Source: an uncultured Chloroflexus sp. (GTDB lineage Bacteria > Chloroflexota > Chloroflexia > Chloroflexales > Chloroflexaceae). From it: 64,000 nucleotides of DNA. Of this stretch, positions 4,288 through 64,000 are shown in pieces. Under the pieces are notes generated by a model that did not search any database, had not been told where the DNA came from, and worked only from the letters and a program-made list of their open reading frames with translations. The translations under genes and the position numbers were made by a program. The stretch spans positions 1 through 64,000 of the forward strand of contig NZ_CALFBQ010000004.1 in assembly GCF_937951745.1 (NCBI RefSeq), in the 5' to 3' direction. Position 1 is the stretch's first letter. The number at the start of each line of letters is the position of its first letter.

Positions 4288-5067
4288 ATGGCAGTGCTGA
4301 CCTTGACCCGCGATGGGCCGGTGGCTACGCTGACTCTGCAGCGTCCGGCGGTTCACAATGCCTTTAACCCGGACGTGATCGCCGGCATCACCGAGGTTTG
4401 CCACGAGGTGCGGCATGATCCGGTGGTGCGGGTGCTGGTGGTGCAAGGAGAGGGGCCTTCGTTCTGCGCAGGTGCCGATTTGAACTGGATGCAAAGTAGC
4501 CTTGCGTATTCGCATGAGGAGAATCTTGTTGATGCCACCCGGCTCGATGCGATGTTTACGGCCCTCGATACTTTACCACAGGCAGTGGTAGCACGGGTAC
4601 ACGGTGCAGCGCTCGGTGGCGGAGTCGGATTAGTCTGCTGCGCCGATTATGTCGTAGCTGCTGAGGAGGCAGTGTTTGGCTTGACCGAAGTGCGTTTGGG
4701 GTTGTTGCCGGCGGTGATTGCCCGTTTTGTAGTGGGGCGGATCGGCTTCGGCCATGCCCGTGCGCTTTTCGTGACCGGGAGGCGGATCAAGGCGGCGCGG
4801 GCGCTGGCGATTGGGTTGGTGCATGAAGTGGTTTCGGCAGACCAGCTTGATGTAGCGGTTGATGGAGTTGTGGCCGATCTGCTGCGCGGCGGCCCGCAGG
4901 CAATTGCGGCCAGCAAGGAGTTGCTGCGCGCCGTGCGTAGCGAGCCGCTCGCCGAGGTGCGTCGGTTGGCGATTGAGGCGATCGCGGCGGCGCGTACCGG
5001 CCCGGAAGGGCAGGCCGGATTGCGAGCCTTCCTTGAACGGCAGTCACCGCCGTGGGCGCTGGGGTAG
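4288..5067 (+). CDS. Enoyl-CoA hydratase, methylglutaconyl-CoA hydratase type
   Basis: This 259-residue crotonase-fold enzyme most likely hydrates 3-methylglutaconyl-CoA to HMG-CoA in leucine degradation (EC 4.2.1.18). The oxyanion-hole loop FCAGADLNWM (59-68) is the signature of the AUH/LiuC subgroup, and the second oxyanion loop is ALGGGVGLV (108-116). Glu134 in GLTEVRLGLLP matches a catalytic glutamate. The ATG at 4288 has an AGGAG ribosome site 7 bases upstream; the open frame continues to 4102 through repeat DNA, which I discount. No other leucine-pathway gene is adjacent, so the substrate rests on the loop signature. A general short-chain enoyl-CoA hydratase is the alternative. Confidence 0.85.
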   Translation: MAVLTLTRDGPVATLTLQRPAVHNAFNPDVIAGITEVCHEVRHDPVVRVLVVQGEGPSFCAGADLNWMQSSLAYSHEENLVDATRLDAMFTALDTLPQAVVARVHGAALGGGVGLVCCADYVVAAEEAVFGLTEVRLGLLPAVIARFVVGRIGFGHARALFVTGRRIKAARALAIGLVHEVVSADQLDVAVDGVVADLLRGGPQAIAASKELLRAVRSEPLAEVRRLAIEAIAAARTGPEGQAGLRAFLERQSPPWALG

Positions 5068-5255
5068 TCAAGACGCAAAGGAGGCGAAGGTGCGAAGAAT
5101 TGATAACACAAAGGTGCGAAGTGCGCAGAGAACGCTAAGGTTTTTTGGGTGTTTACCCCTAACCATACTTACGGCCCATCCTTCCAATGATCTTTGCGAC
5201 CTTTGCGCTCTTGGCGTCTTTACGTTAACCCCTTTGCGACCTTTGCCTAAGCTTA
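5068..5255. repeat. Dispersed GCAAAG/CTTTGCG repeat, copy 2
   Basis: The gap opens with AAGACGCAAAGGAGGCGAAGG and closes with CTTTGCGACCTTTGCGCTC and a second CTTTGCGACCTTTGC. The centre has GGTTTTTTGGGTGTTTACCCC, matching copy 1. It begins directly at the stop of the hydratase gene. Confidence 0.75.
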
Positions 5256-5267
5256 GAGGTTCATCGT

Positions 5268-5897
5268 ATGCCAACATTCACGATTCGTCCCGCTACAATA
5301 AATGATGTGCCGGATATAGCCCGTCTGATTGTGGAGTTGTACCATGCCGAATTGCCTAGTGCGCTGCGTGGTACGCGGTCAGGGCAAGAGCGGTTGGTAG
5401 CGTATACGCTGCGCGCCAACGGTGAGGCGGCTCTAGCTCATCGGTATGTGGTTTGTGATGAACAGCAACAGATGATTGGCACTGGCATGGTGCAATTCCC
5501 CGGCGCGCCGGTGTTTGAGCGCGCGCCGCGCGGCACGATCGCAGTGGCGCTGCGCGAGATTGGCCTGTTGCCGACGCTGCAATTAGCGGCTACCGTCTCT
5601 CGCACCCTGTTCGGCGTTTACCGACACGACGATCCGCAGAGCGCTTTGATCCACAGTGTGGTAGTGGCGGCGGCGGCGCGCGGTCGTGGCGCGGGTCAGG
5701 TATTGATCGCCGCGCTGGAAGATCGCATCCGCGCTCGCGGCTTGGCCCGCGCCCGGTTGCAGGTGCTGGCGAGCAATACCGGCGCGCAGCGCTTTTATCA
5801 CCGGTTAGGCTATCGCGAAGTGTGGCGGTTAGAAGGATGGCGCGCCCGGTTGGGTTGGCCCAGTCTCGTCATGGAAAAAGATGTTGTTTCCCTGTAG
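5268..5897 (+). CDS. GNAT-family N-acetyltransferase
   Basis: This 209-residue protein has the GNAT fold, which moves an acetyl group from acetyl-CoA to an amine. The N-terminal strand (FTIRPATINDVPDIARLI) and the acetyl-CoA pyrophosphate loop RGRGAGQVLI near residue 140 are typical, followed by the late motif NTGAQRFYHRLGY. A weak AGAGG site precedes the ATG. The segment between residues 75 and 105 is a longer, Arg-rich insertion than usual. The substrate cannot be told from the sequence; neighbours do not help because both flanks are repeat or unrelated genes. Confidence 0.85.
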   Translation: MPTFTIRPATINDVPDIARLIVELYHAELPSALRGTRSGQERLVAYTLRANGEAALAHRYVVCDEQQQMIGTGMVQFPGAPVFERAPRGTIAVALREIGLLPTLQLAATVSRTLFGVYRHDDPQSALIHSVVVAAAARGRGAGQVLIAALEDRIRARGLARARLQVLASNTGAQRFYHRLGYREVWRLEGWRARLGWPSLVMEKDVVSL

Positions 5898-5980
5898 TGG
5901 CACATAGCGCACGTTCCTCGATGCGCGTCCCTGCTGCTTGCCTACCCCCTCCTCCTCATAAACAATGCCCGGCAGCCTGC

Positions 5981-6733
5981 TTACGGCGCCACTGCCCGTA
6001 ACGCGGCGATGGCTCCTTTCATTATCAAATCCCCGTCGTTGACAATGGTCATAAAGTTGAAGCCGAGTGTAGCTAGATCGGCAGCGATTTCGGGGGTGGC
6101 GTAGATGCCCGCAGCCAGCCCGTGCTGTTGGCAGACGGCGGTAATACGCTGCAATGCTTCGCGGAAAGATGGTGCGCCAAAATCAACCGGTATCGGCAAA
6201 CCAAGGCTCAGGCTCAGATCAGCCGGCCCAACATAGAGGCCATCGATGCCGGGTACGTCAGCAATCGCCTCAAGCTGTTCCAGTGCTGTTGCCGTCTCGA
6301 TCATCGGCATAATCACCGGCAGTCGTGCCACTGCAGCCGGTTCGGCCACACCGTGCGCTACCCCTACCCGCACCGGGCCATAGCTGCGCATGCCTTCCGG
6401 TGGGAAACGGCAGGCGGCTACTAAGGCGCGCACATCGTCGGGGCCGTTTATGAGCGGCGCAATAATCCCAGATGCGCCGCGGTCGAGCGCGCGCATAATT
6501 GCAGCCGGTTCGTTCCACGCCAACCGCACGAAGACCGGGCAGCGGCGCTGATCGATCGTGTGCAGGATTTGCAATGCGGTTGGATCGTCGATCAGGCCGT
6601 GTTGCAAATCAATGGTCAGCGATGGAAAGCCGGCAGCGGCGAGGAGTTCGGCGCTCCACGGACTCGGGATGGTCAGCCACGCATTGTACACGACGGCGCC
6701 GGCGGCCCATTGCTGACGAATGCTGTCAATCAT
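5981..6733 (-). CDS. HpcH/HpaI-type aldolase
   Basis: This protein of about 250 residues belongs to the HpcH/HpaI class II aldolases, which split or form 2-keto-3-deoxy sugar acids and related hydroxy acids with a divalent metal. Typical signatures are DLQHGLID near residue 40, a metal-binding MIETATALEQ segment, and GPADLSLSLG. I chose the ATG at 6733 because a CGGAG ribosome site lies 8 bases upstream. An in-frame ATG at 6763, 2 bases after the glycosyltransferase stop, is the alternative and would add 10 residues. The close spacing suggests co-transcription with the glycosyltransferase. The natural substrate is unknown. Confidence 0.85.
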   Translation of the reverse strand: MIDSIRQQWAAGAVVYNAWLTIPSPWSAELLAAAGFPSLTIDLQHGLIDDPTALQILHTIDQRRCPVFVRLAWNEPAAIMRALDRGASGIIAPLINGPDDVRALVAACRFPPEGMRSYGPVRVGVAHGVAEPAAVARLPVIMPMIETATALEQLEAIADVPGIDGLYVGPADLSLSLGLPIPVDFGAPSFREALQRITAVCQQHGLAAGIYATPEIAADLATLGFNFMTIVNDGDLIMKGAIAALRAVAP

Positions 6734-6765
6734 AGCTTGCTCCGTGTGATCGCGGAAAGGCATTG

Positions 6766-7830
6766 CTAGCCGCTTGTACGTGATGTGTCGTTGGCTACTG
6801 ACTCGGTGTGCTCTTCATCTATCCCCAAAGCCCGCTCGATCCGGTTGAGGCGGACGCTGATCGTGCGCCGCCACTCTTCTTGCTCGACGAGATTGACGCG
6901 CGTGCGGTACAGAATCTCTTCTTGCAGCCGACGCAAGCCGCCGACGCGGTCGGCGAGCAACCCGATTAGGAAGATGATCAACGCCATGAGGACCAGTACG
7001 CTCCCCACCAGCAGCGATTGATCATTGGTCGCCGACAAAATGTTCAATCGGCGTCCGATAAAGATAAACGCTGCCCGACCGAGCAAAAGAATACCGGGAA
7101 CCGCAAAGAACATCGCGATGTAGCTAAAGACCTTGAGCGGTTCGTAGGTGGTGTAGGTACGGGCAATGATCGCTGCCTGTCGCTTAATAAAGTTCCAGTT
7201 GCCACGGTGCAAGCGCGATGGCCGCTTAACCGGATTGGTAGTAATCGGCACGGTAGCGATGGTCAGCCGACGCTTGCCGGCTTGGATCAGGTTTTCGACC
7301 GTGTACGAGAAATCTGAGGTGACAAAGGTACGGAGGGCGGCTTCGCGTGAGAGAGCGCGGAAACCAGAGACAGTATCGGGGACGTTGGTTTCTGAGGCCC
7401 AACGCACCACCGCGCTGCCGACGTGTTGCAGCGCCTTTTTCAGCGGCGAAAAGTGCTCGATCTGATGTACCTGCCGGTCGCCGATCACAATATCGGCCTT
7501 ACCGGCGAGGATTGGGGCAATCAAACGCGGAATCTCACTGCCGGGGTATTGGTTGTCAGCGTCAGTATTGACAATAATGTCAGCGCCGAGGCGCAGCGCA
7601 GTGTCGATGCCGGTTTGGTAGGCGGTTGCCAACCCCTTATTGGCAGTATGGCGCACGACATGATCGGCGCCGGTAGCGAGGGCAACTGCGACCGTGTCAT
7701 CGGTGCAGCCATCGTCGATGATCAATACCTCAACCTGATCCACGCCGGGGATGTGGCGGGGGATGGCGCGAATGACGTCGGCAATGGTATCACGTTCGTT
7801 GAGGGCTGGAATCTGTACAATCAGTTTCAT
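6766..7830 (-). CDS. Membrane-anchored GT2 glycosyltransferase (dolichol/polyprenyl-phosphate sugar type)
   Basis: This 354-residue protein probably transfers a hexose from a nucleotide sugar to polyprenyl phosphate. The GT-A fold is clear: LIIDDGCTDDT at 37-47 binds nucleotide and NTDADNQYP at 88-96 holds the metal-binding acidic motif. Two membrane helices follow (about 240-262 and 275-298), then a cytoplasmic amphipathic tail. This layout matches DPM1/GtrB-like enzymes. It lies between inositol-phosphate synthase and the aldolase in the same direction, so it could act in glycolipid formation, but this is inference. Confidence 0.87.
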   Translation of the reverse strand: MKLIVQIPALNERDTIADVIRAIPRHIPGVDQVEVLIIDDGCTDDTVAVALATGADHVVRHTANKGLATAYQTGIDTALRLGADIIVNTDADNQYPGSEIPRLIAPILAGKADIVIGDRQVHQIEHFSPLKKALQHVGSAVVRWASETNVPDTVSGFRALSREAALRTFVTSDFSYTVENLIQAGKRRLTIATVPITTNPVKRPSRLHRGNWNFIKRQAAIIARTYTTYEPLKVFSYIAMFFAVPGILLLGRAAFIFIGRRLNILSATNDQSLLVGSVLVLMALIIFLIGLLADRVGGLRRLQEEILYRTRVNLVEQEEWRRTISVRLNRIERALGIDEEHTESVANDTSRTSG

Positions 7831-7854
7831 GCCCGTCCTGTGGTGTGTCGATCA

Positions 7855-7998
7855 CACGCTTACGCCAAGGCGCGAAAAGTGTTCAACGCAAAGACGCCAA
7901 GGTGCGAAGGATGTCATCAACCGCTGTACCAGCGCTTGGCTCATATCCGAAACTCTTTTTGTCTTTGCGTTGTACCAAACTTCGCGCCTTTGCGTTCC
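7855..7998. repeat. Dispersed GCAAAG/CTTTGCG repeat, copy 3
   Basis: The gap between inositol-phosphate synthase and the glycosyltransferase holds AACGCAAAGACGCCAAGGTGCG on the left and TTTGTCTTTGCGTTG and CGCGCCTTTGCGTTCC on the right, so the ends are inverted relative to each other. It lacks the GGTTTTTGGG core of copies 1 and 2. Confidence 0.7.
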
Positions 7999-9084
7999 TT
8001 ACTTCGCGCCGGCCTCGCCGCGGATGAAGCGCTCGGTGAGATTGCGCGCCTCATAGTCGGTAAACTGGCGCGGCGGCGTCTTCATAAAGTAGCTGCTTGG
8101 CCCGTACAGCGCGCCGCCGATCCCGCGATCAAGTGCCAGCTTAGCACAGCGGATCGCGTCGATCACCACGCCCGCCGAATTGGGCGAATCCCACACTTCC
8201 AGCTTCAGTTCGAGATTGAGCGGCACATCGCCAAAGGTGGTGCCTTCCATGCGAATATAGCACCACTTGCGATCACCTAGCCACGGCACGTAGTCGCTCG
8301 GCCCAACGTGAACATTCTCTGCCGGCAGCTCGTAACCCAACTGTGACGTAACCGCGTTGGTCTTGCTAATCTTCTTGCTCTCGAGCCGCTCGCGTTCGAG
8401 CATATTGAGAAAGTCGGTGTTGCCGCCAAAATTCAACTGATAGGTGCGGTCAAGGCGCACGCCGCGCTCTTTGAAGAGGGTAGTCAGCACGCGATGGGTA
8501 ATGGTCGCGCCGACTTGGCTCTTGATATCGTCGCCGATGATTGGCAACCCCTTCTCTTCAAACCGCCGCCGCCAATACTCTTGGCTGGCGATAAACACTG
8601 GAATGCAGTTAATAAAGGCACAGCCGGCATCAAGTACCTGCTCGACGTACCATTTCGTTGCCATCTCGCTGCCGACCGGGAGAAAATTGACTACTACATC
8701 GGTGCCAGTCTCGCGCAGAATCCGCACAATATCGTCAGTATCGCGCTTGGATTTACGGATGACCGTGCTGAGATACTTACCGATGCCGTCGTGGGTCATG
8801 CCACGCGAGACGGGCACCCCCAGCTTGGGCACGTCGGCAAAGCGATAGGTATTGTTCGGCTCGGCGAAGATCGCCTCGGCCAGATCGCGATCGACCTTAG
8901 TATCGGCAATGTCGAACGCCGCCGAAAACTCAATGTCGCCGATGTGGTAGCCGCCGAGATTGACGTGCATCAAGCCGGGGATGTCATCGCCATCGCGGGC
9001 ATTGCGGTAGTAATGCACTCCTTGTACTAATGAAGAGGCGCAATTGCCAACGCCAATAATCGCAACCCGAATCTTCTTACTCAC
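7999..9084 (-). CDS. ino1: Inositol-3-phosphate synthase
   Basis: The enzyme converts glucose 6-phosphate to 1L-myo-inositol 1-phosphate with NAD (EC 5.5.1.4), the first step of inositol synthesis. The 361-residue length matches the compact prokaryotic form. The Rossmann loop GVGNCASS (11-18) binds NAD, and NFLPVGSE and the [12 protein letters not shown] segment are conserved in the family. Inositol phosphate feeds phosphatidylinositol-type lipids or inositol solutes; which applies here cannot be seen. A same-direction glycosyltransferase follows after a repeat. No CDP-inositol phosphotransferase lies nearby. Confidence 0.93.
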
Positions 9085-9677
9085 AGCGCTTCTATCCTTT
9101 CACCACTGTATCTTGAGGCAACAGCCGCAGCGTGGCGGCGTGGATCGGCTTGCCATTGTACCCCTGTCGCGCCGCTTTGTAAAATGGGTAGGTCATAGGT
9201 TCATTGTGTGAGTGCGGAGCCGCGGCGATGTCGTAGGTCTGCCGTCCAAAGCGATTTCCTTGGCTTGTGAGGATGTTGTTAATGTATAAGATCTAACCAT
9301 TAGACAAACTGTCCAATCCGATTGCCGAAAGGATTGTACCCTCTCACCGTAGCGCGAGAGATGGCAACTGGTTAGACTACTGATAGGTGCAGATGTTGCA
9401 CGCTGCCTGTGTAGGCGCAATGGCCAACACCGACGTGGCCCGGTTTGACTATGATCGTTTCGATGCTGCGATGTCGCGTTGCATTGAAGAAAAAGCCTCA
9501 CCGGGTTTGCTGCCTGCCTCACGCGTTGCGCTCTGTCTGCCCCCCCATGTGATAGAAGCCGAGAGGGAGCATACGACGCCGCCGGTCGCCAATGTGCCGC
9601 GGCGTCGTTGCCTGTTTCAGGACCATGTTCGTTCTGGCGGACCGCGTTCGTGCTTGTACTGTAAGGAGTAGGTTCTC
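9085..9677. other. Long non-coding leader region of glnA
   Basis: The 593 bases between the divergent ino1 and glnA genes hold no gene I can support. A 94-residue plus-strand frame (9387-9671) is Cys- and Arg-rich with no family signature. The length suggests promoters for both genes and possibly a structured glnA leader, but I found no hairpin or operator good enough to name. Confidence 0.5.
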
Positions 9678-11099
9678 ATGGCAATGGATGCGAAGGGCGT
9701 TATTGAGCTGATCAAAGCCAAAGGAATTCAAATTGTTGACACGCGCTTTACCGATCTCTTCGGCGGGTGGCAGCACTATTCACTGCCGGCCTCGCGGTTG
9801 ACCGAAGATATGATCCGTGAGGGGTTAGGCTTCGATGGCTCATCGATCAAGGGCTTTCAGGCAATCAACGAGAGCGATATGTTGATGGTGCCGGATCCTT
9901 CGACTGCCTTCATCGATCCGACCCTCAGTGTACCGACGCTGGTGCTGATCTGTGACATCATTGACCCGATCACGCGCCAGTCCTACAGCCGTGACCCGCG
10001 CACAGTGGCGAAGAAGGCTGAGGCGTATCTGAAGTCAACCGGCATTGCTGACACCGCTTACTTTGGGCCGGAAGCGGAATTCTTCCTCTTTAGCGACGTG
10101 CGGTTTGGCCAGAGCGCCAATCAGGGGTTCTACTACATTGACAGCCCCGAAGCGGTGTGGAACACGGGGGCGGAAGTGCCGGGGGGCAACAAGGGCTACC
10201 GCATCCGCCACAAAGAGGGCTACTTCCCGGTGCCGCCGACCGACACCTTGCAGGACATCCGCTCGGAGATGATCCTGAAGATGATGGAAATCGGGATCGA
10301 GATTGAGCTGCACCACCACGAGGTTGCGACTGCCGGCCAGTGCGAGATCGATATGCGGTTTGACTCGCTGGTCAACATGGCCGACAAGGTGCAGAAGTAC
10401 AAGTACATTGTGCGCAACGTGGCCCGCGCCCACGGCTACAGCGCAACGTTTATGCCCAAGCCGATCTTCGGCGACAACGGGTCGGGTATGCACACCCACC
10501 AGAGCTTGTGGAAGGATGGCGAGCCGCTCTTCTTTGACGAGACGCAGTACGCGCTGCTGTCGAAGACGGCGCAATACTACATTGGCGGTATTCTGAAGCA
10601 TGCGCCGGCCTTGCTGGCGATCTGTGCGCCGACCACCAACAGCTACCGGCGGCTAGTGCCCGGCTTCGAGGCCCCGATCAACCTCGTCTACTCGATGCGC
10701 AACCGCTCGGCGGCCATCCGCATCCCGACCTACAGCTCATCGCCGAAGGCCCGCCGGATCGAATTCCGCGCGCCGGATGCCATGTGCAACCCCTATCTGG
10801 CCTTTGCGGCAATGATGATGGCCGGCCTCGACGGCATCCAGAACAAGATCGAGCCACCGCCGCCGCTTGATGTGGACATCTACGAGCTGTCGCCGGAAGA
10901 GAAGGCCGATATTCGCGGTACCCCCAGCTCGCTCAACGAGGCGCTCGATGCGCTCGAGCAGGATCACGAATTCCTGCTTAAGGGCGGCGTGTTTACCACC
11001 GACCTGCTCGAAGCCTACATCGAGACCAAGCGCAAAGAGGCAGTTGGGTTGGCGTTGCGCCCGCACCCGTATGAGTTCATGATGTACTACGATGCATAA
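9678..11099 (+). CDS. glnA: Glutamine synthetase type I
   Basis: The enzyme joins ammonia to glutamate with ATP and is the main nitrogen-assimilation step. The 473 residues match class I dodecameric synthetases. Visible signatures are FDGSSIKGF near residue 52, the ATP-site run [16 protein letters not shown] near 260, and the C-terminal glutamate-binding [13 protein letters not shown]. Tyr402 in the sequence DIYELSPEE lies where GlnE adenylylates the I-beta subtype, so covalent control is possible. An AAGGAG ribosome site lies 9 bases before the ATG; a second ATG six bases downstream (9684) is less well placed. A GC-rich hairpin follows the stop. Confidence 0.97.
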
Positions 11100-55266: not shown

Positions 55267-57069
55267 ATGCGTCGTTTGTTACTATTGGTCATTATTATCC
55301 TCAGCGCATGCGTGGCTCCGCCCCCGCCTCCGCCGCCGGTCACCCCTACCCCGCCGCCGGCGTCGCCGGCGGTGAGCGGTCAGACCACCGCTACTGCCAC
55401 TGTGACGGCGACGTCGGCGCCAATTGCAACACCGGTTGTTACGCCGCCCGCAGTCATTACCGCAACCCCAGTGCCTGCCGTCCATCCCCTCTTCGACCCA
55501 CAGCGGCTCAGTTACGACCATCACTTCAGCGCTCCCGAAATCCAAGCTTTTCTCGAGGTGCGCAATAGTCCGCTCGCAACGATGCGGATAGTCATTGGCG
55601 GGCGGAGCCAATCCTTTACCGATGTGCTGGTCTCGCTTAGCCATCTCTATAGTGTCAGCCCGCGCTTATTGCTTAGCTTGATGGAATTGCAAAGCGGGGT
55701 GTTGAGCACGTCCACGCCGAGCAGCGAGCAATTGGCATGGGCGGCTGGGTTTCGGGGTGAGAATGGCAACCGGCGCGGCGTGTTTAACCAATTGCGCTGG
55801 CTGACCCGCGAGTTGCGCGCGGCGATGCGTGATTACGCTTTGCTGGGGCCTGAGGCGCTGCCGCCGCTGACATTTGCCGATGGATCGCAGGTTGCCGCCT
55901 CGCCTGACCTTAGCCGCTACGTGCTGAGCCGCGCTCTTGCCCCAACGACGACGCCGGGCCAGCTCGATCCGCTGCTCTGGGCCGTTGCCCCTACCTATCA
56001 GCGCCTATTCGACCTCGATCCGCGCCTTGAACCAATTGATTGGCCGGCGCCGTCCGAACCGTTCCTTACCCGACCCACCGAGCGCAACTTCCCGGTCACA
56101 TCGTTTTTCGATCACGACGCGCCGTTTCTGCGTGAGAACGGTTCAGTGCATACCTTCTGGGGGCGGGCCGAAACCGATCGTTCGTTCGCTTACGATGGCC
56201 ATACTGGTTGGGATTACGCGCTGGGGCCGCCCGACCGGGTGCTGGCCGCCGCTCCGGGCCGGGTGGTCTTTGCCGGTTTTTCTGATGATGGCTGCCCCAC
56301 GCCGGCGGGTGGGGTGATTATTGACCACGGCAACGGCTATCGCACGCTCTATTGGCATTTGGCCCGCGTCAGCGTGACTGCGGGTGAAACGGTTGACCGC
56401 GGCGCGGTGATCGGGATCGCTGGCGATACCGGTTGCGCGCGTGGCGCGCATCTCCATTTGCAGGTGCAATATCTTGGGCGCGATGTCGATCCGTATGGCT
56501 GGTGCGGCACTGATCCCGATCCATGGGCAGTGAATCCGGTGGGGCAGATCAGCGTGTGGTTGTGGGCCGATATGCCCTCGCCGTGCGCGCCGCCGCCTCC
56601 CGGCGTGATTGTAGTTGACGATGCCGATCCGGGTTTTCGCGTAAGTGGCGATTGGCAATCGCTTGCGATCGGATACAGTGGCGGCTCCCGCTTTGCCCCG
56701 TCGCAACTTGCCGCCAGCACAGCGAGGCCGTGGCGCTTTAGCGATTTTGCTGCACCCCGGGTTGCAATTTGGCAGCCAGCATTGCCGGCTGCCGGTAGCT
56801 ACCGGGTGCTGGCGTATGTTCCGTTTGCGCTTAATGGCTACGATGATTCACGCGAGGCCCGCTTCTTGATCCGCCACCGCGATGGCGAAACGATCGTGAC
56901 GGTTGATCTCGAAGCTGAGCGCAACTGGTGGGCCGATCTGGGGGTGTATGTATTCGATCCGGCAGCCACGCCGTTCGTGGCTACCGGCACCTTGGCCGGC
57001 GATCGGCAGCGAGGCATCTGGGCCGACGCGATCGCCTTCATACCGGTAGCTGAGCCTACGACGCGCTAA
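55267..57069 (+). CDS. M23-family lipoprotein with golvesin-like C-terminal domain
   Basis: This 600-residue protein starts with a lipobox (LSAC, C15), then a Pro/Thr-rich linker (16-75). A helical domain covers about 80-270. The M23 (LytM-like) domain is at about 300-425: HTGWDYAL with the first zinc ligands, GVIIDHGNGYRTLYWH and HLHLQV (HxH) with the last ones, so the zinc site is complete. It probably cuts peptidoglycan cross-links outside the membrane. The last 150 residues form a beta domain similar to the C-terminal domain of golvesin-like proteins. The end overlaps the convergent permease by 14 bases. Confidence 0.87.
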   Translation: MRRLLLLVIIILSACVAPPPPPPPVTPTPPPASPAVSGQTTATATVTATSAPIATPVVTPPAVITATPVPAVHPLFDPQRLSYDHHFSAPEIQAFLEVRNSPLATMRIVIGGRSQSFTDVLVSLSHLYSVSPRLLLSLMELQSGVLSTSTPSSEQLAWAAGFRGENGNRRGVFNQLRWLTRELRAAMRDYALLGPEALPPLTFADGSQVAASPDLSRYVLSRALAPTTTPGQLDPLLWAVAPTYQRLFDLDPRLEPIDWPAPSEPFLTRPTERNFPVTSFFDHDAPFLRENGSVHTFWGRAETDRSFAYDGHTGWDYALGPPDRVLAAAPGRVVFAGFSDDGCPTPAGGVIIDHGNGYRTLYWHLARVSVTAGETVDRGAVIGIAGDTGCARGAHLHLQVQYLGRDVDPYGWCGTDPDPWAVNPVGQISVWLWADMPSPCAPPPPGVIVVDDADPGFRVSGDWQSLAIGYSGGSRFAPSQLAASTARPWRFSDFAAPRVAIWQPALPAAGSYRVLAYVPFALNGYDDSREARFLIRHRDGETIVTVDLEAERNWWADLGVYVFDPAATPFVATGTLAGDRQRGIWADAIAFIPVAEPTTR

Positions 57070-57835
57070 AGAGGAGATCGCGTTGATTGAAAGCGTAGCG
57101 GGCTAAGCCAAGAAACGCCAGCAGCAATGAGCATTGGGCCAACAGGTTTGACCACGCCGCTATCTGTGCGAAAGCCCGGCTGATGCTCAACTGATACCCG
57201 TAAAAGACCGGTACTAATGGCCCGCTCAGGATTGTCTGAAAGGCGCGCAGCACATTAACTAGGAGGGGGTTGATCTCGGTGAGTTGGTTGATGACCGGCC
57301 CGCCGATCACGTTGCTTGATAGGGCGATGGCAACCAAGGCGAGCACGAAGAGCCGCCAGCCGGTTCCAAGCACGAGCGGCGAGAGCAAGAGCGTGAGCGC
57401 CGCAACCAGCCCGACGTTCAGGATGAGTGGCAAGGTCGCTAGGAACCATCCGGTCACATCGAGATCGGTTGCGCGATTGATCAGGGCCGCCAAGAGGCAG
57501 AGAGTCCCATACATCGCCAATGCGACGGTGACGGCGGCCAAGAATAACCCGATCAGATACGCCCCCCGGCTAACGTTGTGCGCCAAGACGATGTACCCCT
57601 GTGGCCGATCGCCAAGACTGATCATATAGCTGGTGGTGACAATCGCCATAGCCGGGCTAAAAAGACCCAACACCGTAAACAGATAACCGGCGCTCATCGG
57701 GGCTCCGGTCGGGCGCAACAAGACGACATAGCAGGCGACAGCGGCTACCACCTCTAGCAAAACTCGCCCCGATCGCAGATATTCTAGCAATGTAAATCCG
57801 GCGAGCCGGACAGCTTGCGCGATCGATCGCATCAT
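57056..57835 (-). CDS. ABC-2 type permease
   Basis: This 259-residue protein has six membrane helices in the ABC-2 pattern: a first pair, a loop (SLGDRPQGYIVLAHNVSRGAY), and four more. It works with the ATPase encoded just upstream, whose stop overlaps its start (ATGA). The cargo is unknown. It could export a lipid, drug or peptide. It lies next to a cell-wall hydrolase, but on the other strand. Confidence 0.82.
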   Translation of the reverse strand: MMRSIAQAVRLAGFTLLEYLRSGRVLLEVVAAVACYVVLLRPTGAPMSAGYLFTVLGLFSPAMAIVTTSYMISLGDRPQGYIVLAHNVSRGAYLIGLFLAAVTVALAMYGTLCLLAALINRATDLDVTGWFLATLPLILNVGLVAALTLLLSPLVLGTGWRLFVLALVAIALSSNVIGGPVINQLTEINPLLVNVLRAFQTILSGPLVPVFYGYQLSISRAFAQIAAWSNLLAQCSLLLAFLGLARYAFNQRDLLFSAS

Positions 57836-58890
57836 TGTTTGCCCTCCCTCTGGCTAGGCGGATTGGTACTGCTGCGCTGTAACAGTCGCTTCAACATCGG
57901 GTCAATATCGTCAGTTGGCGGTTTGAGCAACGTTTCGCGCAACACTGGGCGGAGGGATGTCACGTTGCCAACCAGTAAATTGTCGACCGGCTCGCCGCGC
58001 ACGGTGCGCAGATAAATCTGCGCTAACCGGCTCATTTGTGGTTCAAGGGCGTGGATTGACACATTGGCTTCGATCAAGGTCTGCAATACTTTGGCCTGCA
58101 ACTCAGGCGTATGTGGACTGATTAACACCGCCTGCTCGGTGCATTGCACTTCGCGCCCGATCATTTCCAATCGCTGGCGCAACGGTAGATCGAGTGGCCC
58201 AGTTTGCACGATGATGCTGCCAGCGGATTGCCGTACCTCGGCGACGTTGAGTTCGAGCGCAATGTTGCCATTGGTCAGAATGCCGGCGCGGTCGCAGAGA
58301 TATTCGACTTCGGCTAGTCGATGAGTGCAGAGCAAGACAGTATGACCACGCTGACGTACACCGTTGAGTAGGGTTAGCAACTCTTGCTGACCGTCGAGGT
58401 CAAGGCCACTGGTTGGTTCATCGATCAGCAACAGATCGGGATCGGTCAAAAGCGCTTGGGCAATGCCGAAACGCTGGAGCATGCCCTTGGAAAAGGTGCG
58501 CAGGTGGCGATTGGCCACCGTGGCGAGTCCGGTCAGTTCAAGAAGTTCGTCAATCCGTTGGCGCAACTGGCTGGCCGGCATCTCATCGAAGCGACCGAGG
58601 AAGGTGAGATATTCGCGAGGAGTGTAGTAGCTGTGATAGCGCTGTCGTTCGGGCATATAGCCGATCAGGCGGCGTTGCGCTTCCAAATTGGCGCTGCCGA
58701 GCACGCGGATGCGCCCGCTATCGGGGTGCAAGAAGCCGAGCAGCAGATGGATGAGCGTGGATTTGCCAGCCCCGTTTGGCCCTAACAAACCATACACTTC
58801 ACCGGCGACGACACGCAGATTGACGCCGCGTAATACCGAGACGTGACCGTAACGTTTCGTAAGACCTTCAACGACAATGACATCGGTCAT
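57832..58890 (-). CDS. ABC transporter ATP-binding protein
   Basis: This 352-residue ATPase has Walker A GPNGAGKST, signature TFSKGMLQRFGIAQ, Walker B LLLIDEPTSGLD and switch His in LCTHRLAEVE. After the nucleotide domain, about 130 residues form a C-terminal extension typical of exporters of the CcmA/NatA group. The ATG at 58890 has GGAG upstream; the frame is open to 58920. It is coupled to the permease gene that follows. Confidence 0.9.
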   Translation of the reverse strand: MTDVIVVEGLTKRYGHVSVLRGVNLRVVAGEVYGLLGPNGAGKSTLIHLLLGFLHPDSGRIRVLGSANLEAQRRLIGYMPERQRYHSYYTPREYLTFLGRFDEMPASQLRQRIDELLELTGLATVANRHLRTFSKGMLQRFGIAQALLTDPDLLLIDEPTSGLDLDGQQELLTLLNGVRQRGHTVLLCTHRLAEVEYLCDRAGILTNGNIALELNVAEVRQSAGSIIVQTGPLDLPLRQRLEMIGREVQCTEQAVLISPHTPELQAKVLQTLIEANVSIHALEPQMSRLAQIYLRTVRGEPVDNLLVGNVTSLRPVLRETLLKPPTDDIDPMLKRLLQRSSTNPPSQREGKQ

Positions 58891-59118
58891 GATGCCGAAC
58901 TCCGGTGATGATGGCTGCAATGAGCGATGTATGCTACATTATGTGTCAACGTATGCAATGTTGCGAAAGGCGGCATCATCGGTTCATCCGCGCTCGCTCA
59001 TCTGACTACGAGGATGGTCGGTTTGTTGGGAAGGGCATCGATTTCACCGCGCTACCTCTCTTAGGAACGCATAGTAAGCGCGCTAGGATGGGATCACGCC
59101 GCAGATAGCGGAAGGCAT

Positions 59119-59934
59119 TCAGGCGCTTTGTCCTAATCCCAGCATTGCCACAGCCAATACCGCCAGACTCCCCGCCCAGATGAGCGTAGTGCGAAGCGCC
59201 GCCGGCACGCTTAAGCGTGGCAGCCGGCCTTGCAACCATTGGAGAGCAAGGGCTGTGATGGCGCTGCCGCCAATGATGATCAACAGCTCAGCCCATGGCG
59301 GCAGCAGTTCGCGCGGTAAGCCTGCCATCCAGACGACGGTCAGCAGGGCTGCCGCAACTGTATCGCGAGCAAACGTTAAGGTTGCCGCCGGACGCGCTGG
59401 CAACCCTTCGGTGATCCCCTGCGGCCCTAACGATGGTTCTGGCCCGAATGGACCCCAGTTGATCGCCGCCGGCAGGCTGAACAGACCGGCCAGCCAGATG
59501 AGCAGGTGGCCGCTGAGCGTCCAGCCGCTCAAACCGCCTGAGCTGCTCAGGCTGATGACAGCGACACTCCATACGATGGCTCGTCCCAATACGCCGATTT
59601 GAGCTTCGCGCACAGCGGCGCGCACGAGGTGAGGCGCCCCGGACGACAACGCCGGCCAGAAGGGGAGCCACGCCGCCGCTTCCAAACATACCCAAGCCCC
59701 TAACCAACCAAATGGCAGTGGCGCCGGATGCCATGGCCACGGCAAACTGGCCAGACCGCCGGCAACTAATCCCAGCGTGGCCAGCGCCAGCCAGCCAATC
59801 CAGTCCGTGGTCAGGAGCAAGCTGCCATTGGCCGGCAGTTGGCGGGTGGTGAGCAAACGGTAGCCAATGCCTAGCCCGATAGCCAGTGCGCCGCCCGGAT
59901 AGATGATCAGTGCTATCAATCCGGCTATCAACAT
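59119..59934 (-). CDS. Membrane subunit, possibly NuoH/HyfC-like, of the hydrogenase-like complex
   Basis: This 271-residue hydrophobic protein has about seven helices, beginning LIALIIYPGGALAIGLGIGYRLL. The order and spacing place it last in the five-gene run (29 bases after the NuoN-like gene). The charged loops of NuoH (the RVGP and EYSG motifs) are not seen, so assignment to NuoH/HyfC is by position and by the YPGG start only. It could be a complex-specific subunit. Confidence 0.45.
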   Translation of the reverse strand: MLIAGLIALIIYPGGALAIGLGIGYRLLTTRQLPANGSLLLTTDWIGWLALATLGLVAGGLASLPWPWHPAPLPFGWLGAWVCLEAAAWLPFWPALSSGAPHLVRAAVREAQIGVLGRAIVWSVAVISLSSSGGLSGWTLSGHLLIWLAGLFSLPAAINWGPFGPEPSLGPQGITEGLPARPAATLTFARDTVAAALLTVVWMAGLPRELLPPWAELLIIIGGSAITALALQWLQGRLPRLSVPAALRTTLIWAGSLAVLAVAMLGLGQSA

Positions 59935-59963
59935 GAAGGTTGTCGCTTCCTTTCTCTGCTTTG

Positions 59964-61415
59964 CTATACAGCGTGCAGCGCAGCCAGACTGCGCACCGCC
60001 GCTTCGATCGTTGGCAACAGCACATTCGGGCAGAGGCCGATTGCCAACATCACAGCCAGCAAGATGCTGATGAGGGCAACGCTGCTCAATGGTTCGCTAG
60101 CTGGTTGGGGCAGCGGCAGGCGATCCAGTTCGGTTTCGCCAAGCAGCGGCGGTTCCTCATCTGAGGGAATGTCGCGCGAACCAATCAGATACTGCACGGC
60201 CAATTGCACCAGTGTCAGCGCCGCTAAGCCCATTGCCGCCAGCACGATCAACAATTCGCCCCAATGGATCGCTGCGGCTGCTTGTAATACTAAGAGCGAG
60301 CTGGTTCCACCCGGAAACGGCAACCAACCGATTAACGCTAACCCGCCACCTAACACGCCGGCGCCTGCCACTGGCTGGCGCCAGAAGAGGTCGTTCCGAG
60401 ATTCTGCGGTCAGGCGCTCGTGCGGATGTTCGAGCAGGGCCAGACTGATCAGAATGGTTGTCACGGCTAACGCTAGATTGATCACACCAACCAGCGCGCC
60501 ACTCAGGCCGGATAATGACAGTGAGGCGAATCCATAGAATATGATACCGCAATTGCTTGCGATCAGATAGGCAATGCGCTGGCGCAACGTACTTGCGGTC
60601 AATGCTAGCGCGCTGGCTAACACGGCGCTGATCGCCGCCCCGATGCGCAGCACATGAAGCGCTTGCCCTCCCTCGAAGAGCAGCGTCGGAAAACTTTGCA
60701 TCGTCAGCAACAAAACGAGCAAGCTCGCCGGCGCTGGTAGGGCGATAATAAGGATGGCCGCCAGCGATCCGGCGTATGATATCAGATCGACCAGCCACGA
60801 ATGGAACGGCGTCAGCGCCATACGCAACGCAAATCCGGCGGCCAGCAAGGCTAAGATAAACCGAGCTGGCGAAATGCGCCCCGGCAGTTCACCCGGACGA
60901 AAGATATCGGTGAGGACGTAGGCGATGTAGAGCAAGATACCGGCAACGACCATTAAGACCAGATACTTCAATGCAGTTGCCAGCGTCTGCCGGTTGACCA
61001 AGACCCCGGCTCCGGTTGGTAGATCAACAATGGCTAGCACCGTTGTCAGACCGATGGCCACCAACACCAAGGCGGTCACGAACGAGTCTTGCATCACCAG
61101 AATTGCGATCGTTTGACCAACGGTGAGCAGGCCGATGGCGCTGAAGTTTTCGCCGTGCGGCACGATGAGCGCCGCGGTCAGTGTTGCAATGCCCACCCCT
61201 AAAAATAGAAAGAGAAAGATTTGGTTGAGCGGGCTGAGCAATAATGTCACTCCTAAGACGCGCACCGGATCGTCAACCCGTACTTGTACGGCGAGCAACA
61301 ATTCAACGACTAGCGTCCCGATGCTCAGCGCAATGGCAATGCGGGGCAACCGGCGCAAGAGAAAGGTGCTGAAGGCCATACTGAGCGGGAAAAAGATGAG
61401 TAACAGGTACAGCAT
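59964..61415 (-). CDS. NuoN/HyfF-like ion-translocating subunit
   Basis: This 483-residue protein has about 14 helices of the NuoL/M/N antiporter-like family. It keeps TALKYLVLMV (the helix-broken Lys site) near residue 148 and RMALTPFHSWLVDLISYAG near 200, which matches the KxxxxPFHxWLPD motif with Arg in place of Lys. These residues form the ion channel in complex I. The C-terminal 70 residues are polar in part (DIPSDEEPPLLGETELDRLP). Its start is 2 bases from the previous stop. Confidence 0.75.
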   Translation of the reverse strand: MLYLLLIFFPLSMAFSTFLLRRLPRIAIALSIGTLVVELLLAVQVRVDDPVRVLGVTLLLSPLNQIFLFLFLGVGIATLTAALIVPHGENFSAIGLLTVGQTIAILVMQDSFVTALVLVAIGLTTVLAIVDLPTGAGVLVNRQTLATALKYLVLMVVAGILLYIAYVLTDIFRPGELPGRISPARFILALLAAGFALRMALTPFHSWLVDLISYAGSLAAILIIALPAPASLLVLLLTMQSFPTLLFEGGQALHVLRIGAAISAVLASALALTASTLRQRIAYLIASNCGIIFYGFASLSLSGLSGALVGVINLALAVTTILISLALLEHPHERLTAESRNDLFWRQPVAGAGVLGGGLALIGWLPFPGGTSSLLVLQAAAAIHWGELLIVLAAMGLAALTLVQLAVQYLIGSRDIPSDEEPPLLGETELDRLPLPQPASEPLSSVALISILLAVMLAIGLCPNVLLPTIEAAVRSLAALHAV

Positions 61416-61417
61416 GG

Positions 61418-62140
61418 TTATCCGCGGTAGAGTTCGCTGATCGCGAGCGTCTTCAATCGCCCATAGACGATCCCAGCGAGGTAGGCGATAGCCAAGGCCA
61501 GCAAGATTTGGACAACGCTGAGCAACAGTAGCGCCATAATCTTTAAGCCGCTTGCCGCCGGCGCGCTCATGACCGCACTGTACAATAAGTCAATCCCGCT
61601 GGTGCAGAGGAGCAAGCCCAAGCCGATTTTCAATACGTCGCTAGCCGTGGCCATCGTGAGCATACCGCTAAGCGCAAGCCAGTACCATGCGAAATCGAGA
61701 CCGGGACTGGGCGCAATCGGGTAGATGATCGGCAGAACGATGCTGGCGATCAAGGCGGCAACTCCTGACCAAAATGGAAAGACATAATCAATCAACCGCA
61801 GCGTTTCGGTGGAGCGTTGGCGAGCAGCGGCGCGCAAGGCTCGGCGTAGCTCGGCTTGCCCGAACTCATCGAGGTCTTCGAGACCATAATCGCGCGAAAA
61901 AGTGAGTGCCGTGACCGCGAGAATGAGCGTGGTGCAGACGCCAGTAATGAGTTTGATCAAGGCTAGCGAACTTAGCCCTGCTTGGCCGAGATCGGGTCGC
62001 ACGAAGGGTTGTTCGTTCAGTAAGCCGGCCAGCGCCCCATAGTTCAACAGCAACAAGATGACTGTCAGCCGCCAATCGCGCAACAGTAAGATGCCGCCTG
62101 CCGAGATGCCGAGCAGTATGATCCAGATATCAAACGTCAT
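61418..62140 (-). CDS. NuoK/HyfE-like membrane subunit
   Basis: This 240-residue protein has six helices. The segment DVLKIGLGLLLCTSGIDLLYSAV and the later SVVQILLALAIAYLAGIVYG resemble HyfE and the NuoK pair of helices, with the N-terminal part longer. In group-4 hydrogenases HyfE takes the place of NuoK. A charged cytoplasmic loop (YGLEDLDEFGQAELRRALRAAARQR) lies in the middle. The gene is tightly packed, 28 bases from the gene upstream and 2 from the gene downstream. Confidence 0.6.
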   Translation of the reverse strand: MTFDIWIILLGISAGGILLLRDWRLTVILLLLNYGALAGLLNEQPFVRPDLGQAGLSSLALIKLITGVCTTLILAVTALTFSRDYGLEDLDEFGQAELRRALRAAARQRSTETLRLIDYVFPFWSGVAALIASIVLPIIYPIAPSPGLDFAWYWLALSGMLTMATASDVLKIGLGLLLCTSGIDLLYSAVMSAPAASGLKIMALLLLSVVQILLALAIAYLAGIVYGRLKTLAISELYRG

Positions 62141-62168
62141 AGTCCGTCATTCCTTGTCAAGGCGACGT

Positions 62169-63869
62169 TCATTGCGCCATCAAGATGAGGATGGCCAACA
62201 GCGCGACGATTACGCCAAAGAGGTAGTAGCGTTGCTCGAAGATGATCATGCCGGTATGCAACATGCTCGCTACCCGATCGATCGCGCGCCCCAGCCAAAT
62301 CAGCGCTGTGTGCGCATCGGCGGCTTCCGCCAGCCCGCGCAACCTATCACCCATTCCCTGCCAAGTGGGGATAACGGGGTTGCCGATATTGGGTGGCGGG
62401 TCGAGCCGCTTAGCTCGCCGCGCTAATAGCCATCCGCCAAGGCCGCTGGCCAAGGCAAAGCTAATCAACGGCCAAGCAACCGGATCGGCGGGGAGCACTG
62501 GCGGGGCAAAGGGCGACCAGCTCAACCACAGCGGCCATGCCAACCACGGGATCAGGCCGGCCAATACCAGTGGCGCGAGTGCCAAGCCTCCAAGCATGCC
62601 TTCTGGCCAATGTTCGCGCGTCGTCGTCTGACCATGCCAGCACCGGATTACGAGCGGCAACCCGGCTGCTAGACCGATCAGGGCAGCGGCGATGAGTGGC
62701 GCAATAGCCCAAACCAACCGGGTGGCGAGTGCTTCGATCAGCCAGCGCCATCCCCAAAAGCTCCACCCAAGCGGAAGACCGGTGGCAATGGCGGTGGTGA
62801 GCAGCCAAAGTACGCCGCTCAAGGGTAGCGCCACCTGCGCTGCTGATCCGTCAAGCGCATCGCTACTCTGACGTTGGATGATCGCTGCGACCACGATCCC
62901 GCCAGCAATGGCATGGAGCTGCAAGGCCAGTAAGAGTGCCGGTGCGGCTAAGCCGGCCAGAGGATCGTTGATGACTGCGGCGCACACGATCACCCCGGCT
63001 TGTAGTGCGCCCTGCCACAACCCCAACTCGCGCCCATTCGCCGCGCAGAGCGCACCGACTGCGGCTCCGAGCGCGCCGATGGCGCCAGCAGCAGCCAACA
63101 ACTGGCCGGCGAGCGCCGGCAATGGCGGTAATTGCGGTATGACCCGCACCACGAACCCCAACCCAATCGTTGGCAATACCAGCCCAGCGATTAGCGCACC
63201 AACCGGCGCTGGCGCATGGGCAAAGCTCAAGCGTGTTCCGGCGAACGGCGGCGCTCCGGCTAAGGCCAGTGCGCCGATCACCGCGAAGAGTACCGGCGCT
63301 GTTGCAGGCGTTGTATCAGGGGTCAGCAGCGCCATAAGCGCAATGAGACCGCTCACGGCCACGACGGCGACTGCTCCGGCAATCAGGTGCGGGGGAAGTC
63401 GCCCCGGTGCCGGCATCACACCGCTAGCGAGTAACGCGCCGTGGGCGGCCAGCACAGCCAGCGCCCAACTGAGCGGGGTCAACACGCTGAATGGGGGGAT
63501 CGTTAAGCTGAGTAGCGCAGCGGCAAGCGCCAATGTGAGCCAGCCAAACAGTGTACCAAAGCTTTTAGTAGCGGGGGGAACGGCGAGTGCTAACGCGAGC
63601 AGACCAATGGTTCCGCCAAATAATAGCCCTCCTGCCAGCGCTCGTTCGCTCAGAGCAACTGGCGCTGGCAAGACCACTGCGATCGCGCCAATGCTGTACA
63701 ACGGCGTCGCCTCCGCCGGTTCAAGCGGGTCAATGATGACCCCAACCATGGCGATCCCGCTGGCTAGCGTAGCGAGTAACGCTAAGCGCCGGGTAATGCC
63801 AGCGCGGCTGAGCAGAAAGCAAGCGGTAGCAACCGCCAGTAAGCTTATCAGTCCGGCAGTAACACCCAT
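62169..63869 (-). CDS. NuoL/HyfB-like hydrophobic subunit
   Basis: This 566-residue, very Ala/Leu-rich protein has about 15 helices. The motif LAGAPPFAGTRLSF matches GxPPFxGF, a hallmark of NuoL/M/N subunits, and the C-terminal AIDRVASMLHTGMIIFEQRYYLFGVIVALLAI resembles the end of HyfB/NuoL-type proteins. Charged residues in helices are few, so the channel may be degenerate. GGGGGAGGA lies upstream of the ATG, 35 bases after the preceding stop. Confidence 0.65.
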   Translation of the reverse strand: MGVTAGLISLLAVATACFLLSRAGITRRLALLATLASGIAMVGVIIDPLEPAEATPLYSIGAIAVVLPAPVALSERALAGGLLFGGTIGLLALALAVPPATKSFGTLFGWLTLALAAALLSLTIPPFSVLTPLSWALAVLAAHGALLASGVMPAPGRLPPHLIAGAVAVVAVSGLIALMALLTPDTTPATAPVLFAVIGALALAGAPPFAGTRLSFAHAPAPVGALIAGLVLPTIGLGFVVRVIPQLPPLPALAGQLLAAAGAIGALGAAVGALCAANGRELGLWQGALQAGVIVCAAVINDPLAGLAAPALLLALQLHAIAGGIVVAAIIQRQSSDALDGSAAQVALPLSGVLWLLTTAIATGLPLGWSFWGWRWLIEALATRLVWAIAPLIAAALIGLAAGLPLVIRCWHGQTTTREHWPEGMLGGLALAPLVLAGLIPWLAWPLWLSWSPFAPPVLPADPVAWPLISFALASGLGGWLLARRAKRLDPPPNIGNPVIPTWQGMGDRLRGLAEAADAHTALIWLGRAIDRVASMLHTGMIIFEQRYYLFGVIVALLAILILMAQ

Positions 63870-63904
63870 GAAGCGTCGCTATCCTCCCCCTGATTGCAGA
63901 AGCG

Positions 63905-64000
63905 TTATTCGCGACCAATGATATAGGTCGCTGCTTGCCAGCATGCCGTGCATGGGTCGGTTGAGATGGCGATCAGGAGCGCATCGTCAACCGCAGCTTT
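63905..64000 (-). CDS. [NiFe]-hydrogenase-like large subunit, C-terminal 31 residues (partial)
   Basis: The gene enters from beyond the window. Its last codons read ALLIAISTDPCTACWQAATYIIGRE. DPCxxC preceded by a hydrophobic strand is the C-terminal metal-ligand motif of [NiFe]-hydrogenase large subunits; in group-4 enzymes it reads SxDPCxSCTxR. Here the usual His/Arg two positions after the second Cys is Gln. The 9 residues after WQ could be the peptide cut off after nickel insertion. It lies directly before the membrane genes, as hydrogenase modules often do. The identification rests on a short stretch and the gene context. Confidence 0.65.
   Translation of the reverse strand, partial: KAAVDDALLIAISTDPCTACWQAATYIIGRE

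Follow-up and report, generated by a model that had tools for sequence, protein, structure and literature searches.

A hydrogenase-derived membrane complex in Chloroflexus that is probably redox-silent and non-pumping

In this study, we analysed a cassette of five genes that encodes a membrane complex in Chloroflexus. We put at roughly 60% the probability that this complex descends from an energy-converting hydrogenase, has become redox-silent and non-pumping, and is kept for a new role that is possibly tied to an ABC exporter. A preliminary description of the same DNA had seen an ion-pumping complex of the group-4 [NiFe]-hydrogenase kind with a degenerate membrane arm. The degenerate arm stands, with charged residues replaced in three membrane subunits (M566, M483 and M271 below). 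The ion pumping does not, because neither antiporter-like subunit has the Glu of TM5 or the Lys of TM7 any more, and the membrane anchor has lost the equivalents of HycD E138 and E203.

Results

The cassette and its genomic setting

The window is the whole stretch of 64,000 nucleotides analysed here, that is, contig C4:1-64000 of a Chloroflexus genome of 4.25 Mb and 99.4% completeness. An ORF check of the window confirmed five consecutive minus-strand genes, each where the preliminary description had placed it. The gene for the large subunit (LSU) runs over the window edge, and extension past position 64,000 completed its ORF and recovered both CxxC motifs. The features are as follows.

63905-64000, minus strand: 3' end of the gene for LSU, a hydrogenase-type large subunit of 361 aa (full gene at contig 63905-64990, stop at 63905)
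63941-63958, minus strand: DPCTAC motif of LSU, the second CxxC
Contig 64796-64807, beyond the window edge, minus strand: CPYC motif of LSU, the first CxxC
62169-63869, minus strand: M566, a degenerate NuoL/MrpA/MbhH-like antiporter-type subunit of 566 aa (family profile; TM5 Glu and TM7 Lys absent)
61418-62140, minus strand: M240, a membrane protein of 240 aa, NuoK/MrpC-like by position and very weak similarity only
59964-61415, minus strand: M483, a NuoM/NuoN-like subunit of 483 aa (PF00361; TM5 Glu replaced by Val)
60822-60824, minus strand: Arg198 of M483, replacing the TM7 Lys (alignment)
59935-59963, minus strand: gap of 29 bp between M483 and M271, the site of an Fe-S small subunit (SSU) gene of about 130 aa in relatives; SSU absent
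59119-59934, minus strand: M271, a NuoH/HycD-like membrane anchor of 271 aa (predicted fold)
59581-59583, minus strand: Arg118 of M271, replacing a conserved channel Glu (alignment)
57832-58920, minus strand: DrrA-like ABC exporter ATPase, syntenic with the complex in most Chloroflexales
57056-57835, minus strand: ABC-2-type permease, partner of the ATPase (synteny)

The LSU gene comes first in the cassette, an unusual order relative to hyf and hyc that had been pointed out before. Convergent with the permease gene lies a plus-strand gene for an M23 peptidase/Golvesin-domain protein (window 55267-57069), which many f1 family members also have beside the cassette. We found no functional link between the cassette and its flanking genes (Ig-like protein, M23 peptidase, DUF4097 and DppB-like permease), and direct repeats between 54000 and 64000 amounted to nothing beyond short imperfect two-copy pairs.

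The cassette is not an ordinary complex I operon. Two such operons lie elsewhere in the genome (C7 71000-90000 and C16 55000-74000; loci L100 and L101), and one of them contains an additional gene of the antiporter-like (NuoM) type, a feature already published for C. aggregans. Two complex I sets also appear in the accessible parts of published genome and transcript studies (PMC3150298, PMC8004040), where the LSU-membrane cassette receives no mention. Because the second nuo set is described there as scattered (PMC3150298), we considered a NuoF near the cluster; the NuoF homologues sit elsewhere. No description of the cassette was found in the open-access literature. LSU resembles NuoD over about 270 residues and the membrane subunits are homologous to NuoH, NuoL and NuoM/N; unlike complex I, the Chloroflexus cassette has an LSU from a separate clade, no NADH module, and neither the TM5 Glu nor the TM7 Lys.

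The large subunit

LSU is a true homologue of hydrogenase large subunits. The protein alone matches PF00346 (the NuoD family) with E=7.8e-31, and a profile of 24 relatives matches E. coli HycE (7z0s_E, E=4.9e-70) and MbhL (6cfw_L, E=7.1e-62) over its positions 6-359 of 360, that is, at full length; most NuoD proteins match the profile over about 280 residues only. In a maximum-likelihood tree, the LSUs of Chloroflexales form one clade (100/99), separate from HycE/HyfG, from Ech- and MBH-type proteins and from NuoD. The LSU of G315, a genome from another order of the same class, joins this clade at 99/91; G315 and G136, a further Chloroflexota genome, are long branches.

Both CxxC motifs are present, the first within CPYCSVAH towards the N-terminus and the second within DPCTACWQ towards the C-terminus. 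Retention of all four cysteines and of the catalytic Arg of the PRG motif in a true homologue would suit a working group-4 energy-converting [NiFe]-hydrogenase that makes H2 and pumps ions. Against this, the L1 Arg before the first CxxC, which is Arg in the HycE, HyfG, Ech and Mbh controls, is Q in the window genome, and the usual terminal Arg/His, whose absence had already been remarked on, is indeed replaced by WQ.

Cysteine conservation differs between members with and without an SSU. The four LSU cysteines are kept in 21, 23, 24 and 24 of the 24 SSU-less members and in 18, 11, 20 and 19 of the 22 SSU-bearing ones, counts that are not independent because the sequences are related. All four are lost in G021/G031, and the second is lost in family f2 and in the Herpetosiphon types. 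The SSU-less clade has gained conserved prolines (CPxC in 23/24, DPC in 24/24) and no longer has the L1 Arg, Arg39, the GPFHP loop or the AE terminus. Since the cysteines are better kept without SSU and are accompanied by new prolines, a re-used metal or structural site fits these data better than a catalytic vestige, and we give even odds to the cysteines forming such a site. With a mean column identity of 57%, LSU is, together with M240 (61%), the best-conserved subunit of the complex.

The small subunit and maturation

In relatives, SSU is a protein of about 130 aa homologous to MbhJ and NuoB. A whole-genome search with the family profile found no SSU of the LSU-associated family in Chloroflexus. 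In the window genome, this profile matches nothing but the two NuoB proteins encoded in the complex I operons, which score 39-46 bits versus 133-186 for true members and lie far from the cassette. We also looked for an SSU hidden elsewhere by means of PF01058, and its four matches were this NuoB pair and two proteins near other hydrogenase genes. The SSU-less members, 24 in total from Chloroflexus and related genera, form one supported clade in the LSU tree, and SSU of this family is absent from their genomes, including three single-contig Chloroflexus genomes. G008 likewise has no SSU. The preliminary description had advised a search for a small subunit with 4Fe-4S ligands, and had offered either a true energy-converting hydrogenase or a hydrogenase-related complex with a new redox partner. 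For Chloroflexus neither proposal finds support, as the family's Fe-S SSU is absent genome-wide.

Building of the Ni-Fe cofactor requires HypD. HypD is missing from three genomes whose SSU is intact and whose LSU has all four cysteines (G039, G058 and G045), and from every Herpetosiphon-type genome searched. Chloroflexus does have HypD, encoded on contig C38 with another PF01058 protein, and its genome holds two conventional NiFe hydrogenases, so that Ni-Fe loading of LSU is still conceivable. This HypD also counts in favor of a working hydrogenase. Nevertheless, the genome has no SSU, the pump residues and E-channel glutamates are lost (see below), some relatives with intact LSU cysteines dispense with HypD, and published work on C. 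aggregans counts just two hydrogenases, one for uptake and one bidirectional (PMC8004040). Altogether, we regard a functional H2-producing, ion-pumping enzyme as highly improbable.

Among the SSU-bearing relatives, the Fe-S ligands have diverged. All four Fe-S cysteines of SSU are intact in some of them, while Herpetosiphon-type genomes, G059 and G315 keep SSU with these cysteines replaced. The intact set makes electron transfer plausible in those relatives, where an Ehr-like activity is possible. The Chloroflexus complex might be an Ehr/Mbx-type machine, that is, not a hydrogenase, which passes electrons to quinone or another acceptor through NuoB in trans or through an unrecognised Fe-S protein. 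In principle, NuoB of complex I could replace SSU in trans in Chloroflexus. The likeness lies in a hydrogenase-like LSU within a non-hydrogenase membrane complex; Ehr complexes also lack Ni-Fe ligands and are suspected of linking charge translocation to a redox reaction (PMC6349859). However, the situation in Chloroflexus is the reverse of that in Ehr/Mbx, as the LSU cysteines remain and the Fe-S SSU is gone. No Fe-S gene is linked to the cassette in Chloroflexus, its LSU has lost the GPFHP loop and further residues that SSU-bearing members conserve, and the pump residues are missing. Moreover, the loss of the SSU cysteines in the Herpetosiphon types and in G315 implies that the conserved function seems not to need them. 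For these reasons, we consider an Ehr/Mbx-type activity in Chloroflexus unlikely.

The membrane subunits

Two of the earlier assignments in the membrane arm hold. M483 matches PF00361 (E=5.7e-11) and behaves as a NuoM/N-like protein in profile comparisons, in line with its former designation as NuoN-like. M566 alone has no meaningful Pfam match; its family profile matches MbhH, MrpA and ND5, which agrees with the NuoL-like label. The NuoK/HyfE-like label of M240 is weak; there are slight profile hints of MrpC/NuoK, and hhalign, Pfam and a fold search gave no convincing match. The structure model of M240 is of lower confidence than that of M271.

The residues on which antiporter-like subunits depend are replaced throughout the family. 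In an alignment of 35 controls (complex I, Hyf, Hyc, MBH- and Ech-type) and 47 family members, the TM5 Glu is found in 34/35 controls and in 0/47 members of the Chloroflexales family. For the TM7 Lys, the corresponding counts are 33/35 and 0/47. The TM7 position of M483 is occupied by Arg in 22 of 23 family members; the Lys-to-Arg exchange noticed earlier near residue 200 is Arg198. HycC is a known exception, with Leu208 in place of Lys (PMC9474812). The register of our alignment is supported by its reproduction of this exception and by the NuoL-like subunit of G315, which keeps both residues, and separate HMM alignments agree with it. In addition, most SSU-bearing members have the TM12 Lys, which the SSU-less clade members examined have lost.

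M271, formerly the unassigned hydrophobic protein of the set, has no sequence match. On its predicted fold, it is a homologue of NuoH/HycD: the AF2 model (pLDDT 91.7) superimposes on HycD (7z0s_D) with a VIA Z of 20.6 and an rmsd of 3.2 over 257 aligned residues, and the best 50 Foldseek matches are all of the NuoH/HycD type. At the position of HycD E138, 16/17 controls have Glu, whereas 23/23 family members have Arg; at that of E203, Glu occurs in 17/17 controls and in 0/23 family members. Mutation of E138 in HycD cut H2 production by 98% (PMC9474812).

Taken together with the missing SSU, these replacements indicate that the complex is likely redox-silent and non-pumping in Chloroflexus. Against the second part, the Arg at TM7 of M483 is still positively charged, and an unusual proton path could run over other polar residues. 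The membrane arm also brings to mind an Mrp-like cation/proton antiporter, or a passive ion or lipid channel, with LSU as a cytoplasmic plug. Mrp likewise has antiporter-like subunits and no Fe-S module, two such subunits and the H-like subunit remain in the cassette, and most SSU-bearing members still have the TM12 Lys. In contrast to Mrp, the cassette retains a hydrogenase LSU and an H-like anchor, and the canonical charged residues of antiporters are missing, including the TM5 Glu and TM7 Lys in both subunits and the TM12 Lys in those members of the SSU-less clade that were examined. An Mrp-like antiporter or channel is, in our view, improbable.

Distribution and selection

A high-scoring LSU homologue occurs in nearly all of the 61 genomes searched, which span four families of the order. 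The contig scan with the window LSU as single query returned Chloroflexus islandicus (93%) and other Chloroflexus records, and none of another type. Across the loci compared, the usual order is LSU - M566 - M240 - M483 - [SSU] - M271 - ABC ATPase - ABC permease. The Herpetosiphon-type family carries the cassette in two separate pieces, the second of which unites SSU, M271 and the ABC pair. Family f2 has the ABC pair away from the cassette, and relatives of the permease are found elsewhere in the genome. The preliminary description had thought of a phototroph, a link that is not upheld because all four families carry the cassette, including what is presumably Herpetosiphon, a non-phototroph.

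Some loci depart from this scheme. In a relative, G014 (L053, 6452-9157, minus strand), an ORF of 901 aa lies between the LSU and NuoL-like genes. The related cassette of G315 (L116, G315:C1:333000-352500; 5193-10874, minus strand) has an LSU with all four cysteines (ICGKC...CMACGER), a NuoL-like protein that retains the TM5 Glu and the TM7 Lys, and an SSU that has lost its Fe-S cysteines. G136 (L120, G136:C20:25500-44500; 4617-9981, minus strand) contains an odd group-4-like set on a long branch, with an LSU having a single first-motif Cys (LCGSAAHHH...DICVACVDK), an SSU with CNGC, and an H-like protein without the E138 Glu.

The stepwise loss of cofactors and charged residues might be taken as the decay of a pseudo-operon with no remaining function. 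This is very hard to reconcile with the dN/dS values of 0.04-0.24 for LSU, M566, M240, M483 and M271 (between Chloroflexus species and other close pairs), with the retention of the operon in four families of the order, and with the presence of invariant residues in every subunit across the family. For the ABC ATPase, dN/dS of pairs with the window genome (G000) was left out, as a paralogue was compared. Judging from these sequences, purifying selection is still acting on the complex, and we give decay almost no weight.

Discussion

The closest named concepts for this cassette are Ehr/Mbx and Mrp, and neither fits by the features tested. With the group-4 [NiFe]-hydrogenases (Hyd-3 FHL and Hyd-4 of E. 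coli, MBH and Ech) it has in common a homologous LSU, a NuoH/HycD-type anchor and antiporter-like subunits. An SSU homologous to MbhJ is present in some Chloroflexales relatives, and its gene is missing in Chloroflexus. Unlike those hydrogenases, the Chloroflexus cassette has no NuoI-type ferredoxin or NuoC-type gene, its pump and E-channel residues are replaced, its LSU gene comes first, and an ABC exporter is attached.

In our preferred reading, that of a redox-silent and non-pumping descendant of an energy-converting hydrogenase, the complex probably now does a different job. Its origin would lie in the deletion of the Fe-S SSU gene in Chloroflexus and related genera and in the replacement of pump residues and E-channel glutamates, as seen in the sequence. 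LSU and the H-like, NuoM/N-like, NuoL-like and 240-aa subunits would still form an L-shaped complex without electron transfer. The CPxC/DPCxxC cysteines of LSU may now hold a structural or sensory Zn-like metal, or form a disulfide, in place of the Ni-Fe cofactor. In complex I, conformational changes at the interface of the large subunit and the H subunit couple redox chemistry to the membrane arm. In the most speculative step of our proposal, such changes might have come to control the linked ABC exporter or to serve as its scaffold.

Synteny with the ABC exporter suggests transport, or its regulation, as the role of the complex. In favor of the link, the ABC pair has moved together with SSU and M271 in the Herpetosiphon-type genomes. 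Against it, the link is based on synteny, which is lost in family f2. We consider functional coupling to the exporter doubtful. We are more reserved still about a wider version, in which the complex would be a redox-free membrane machine throughout the order, with the former Ni-Fe site serving as metal-binding or sensory cysteines that gate or scaffold the exporter, and with coupling of the complex I fold operating without electrons or pumping.

By the prevailing view, complex I arose from group-4 hydrogenases through loss of the Ni-Fe site, with Fe-S transfer and pumping retained. The cassette described here would represent another evolutionary route, in which the pump residues, the E-channel, SSU and, in places, the Fe-S ligands were lost and the scaffold stayed under selection. 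These natural loss-of-function variants may serve for testing what the complex I fold does without redox chemistry, and the stages of loss are carried by cultured strains of Chloroflexus and probably also of Roseiflexus and Herpetosiphon. If these genes were labelled as hydrogenase or complex I, the extent of H2 metabolism in Chloroflexota genomes would be overestimated.
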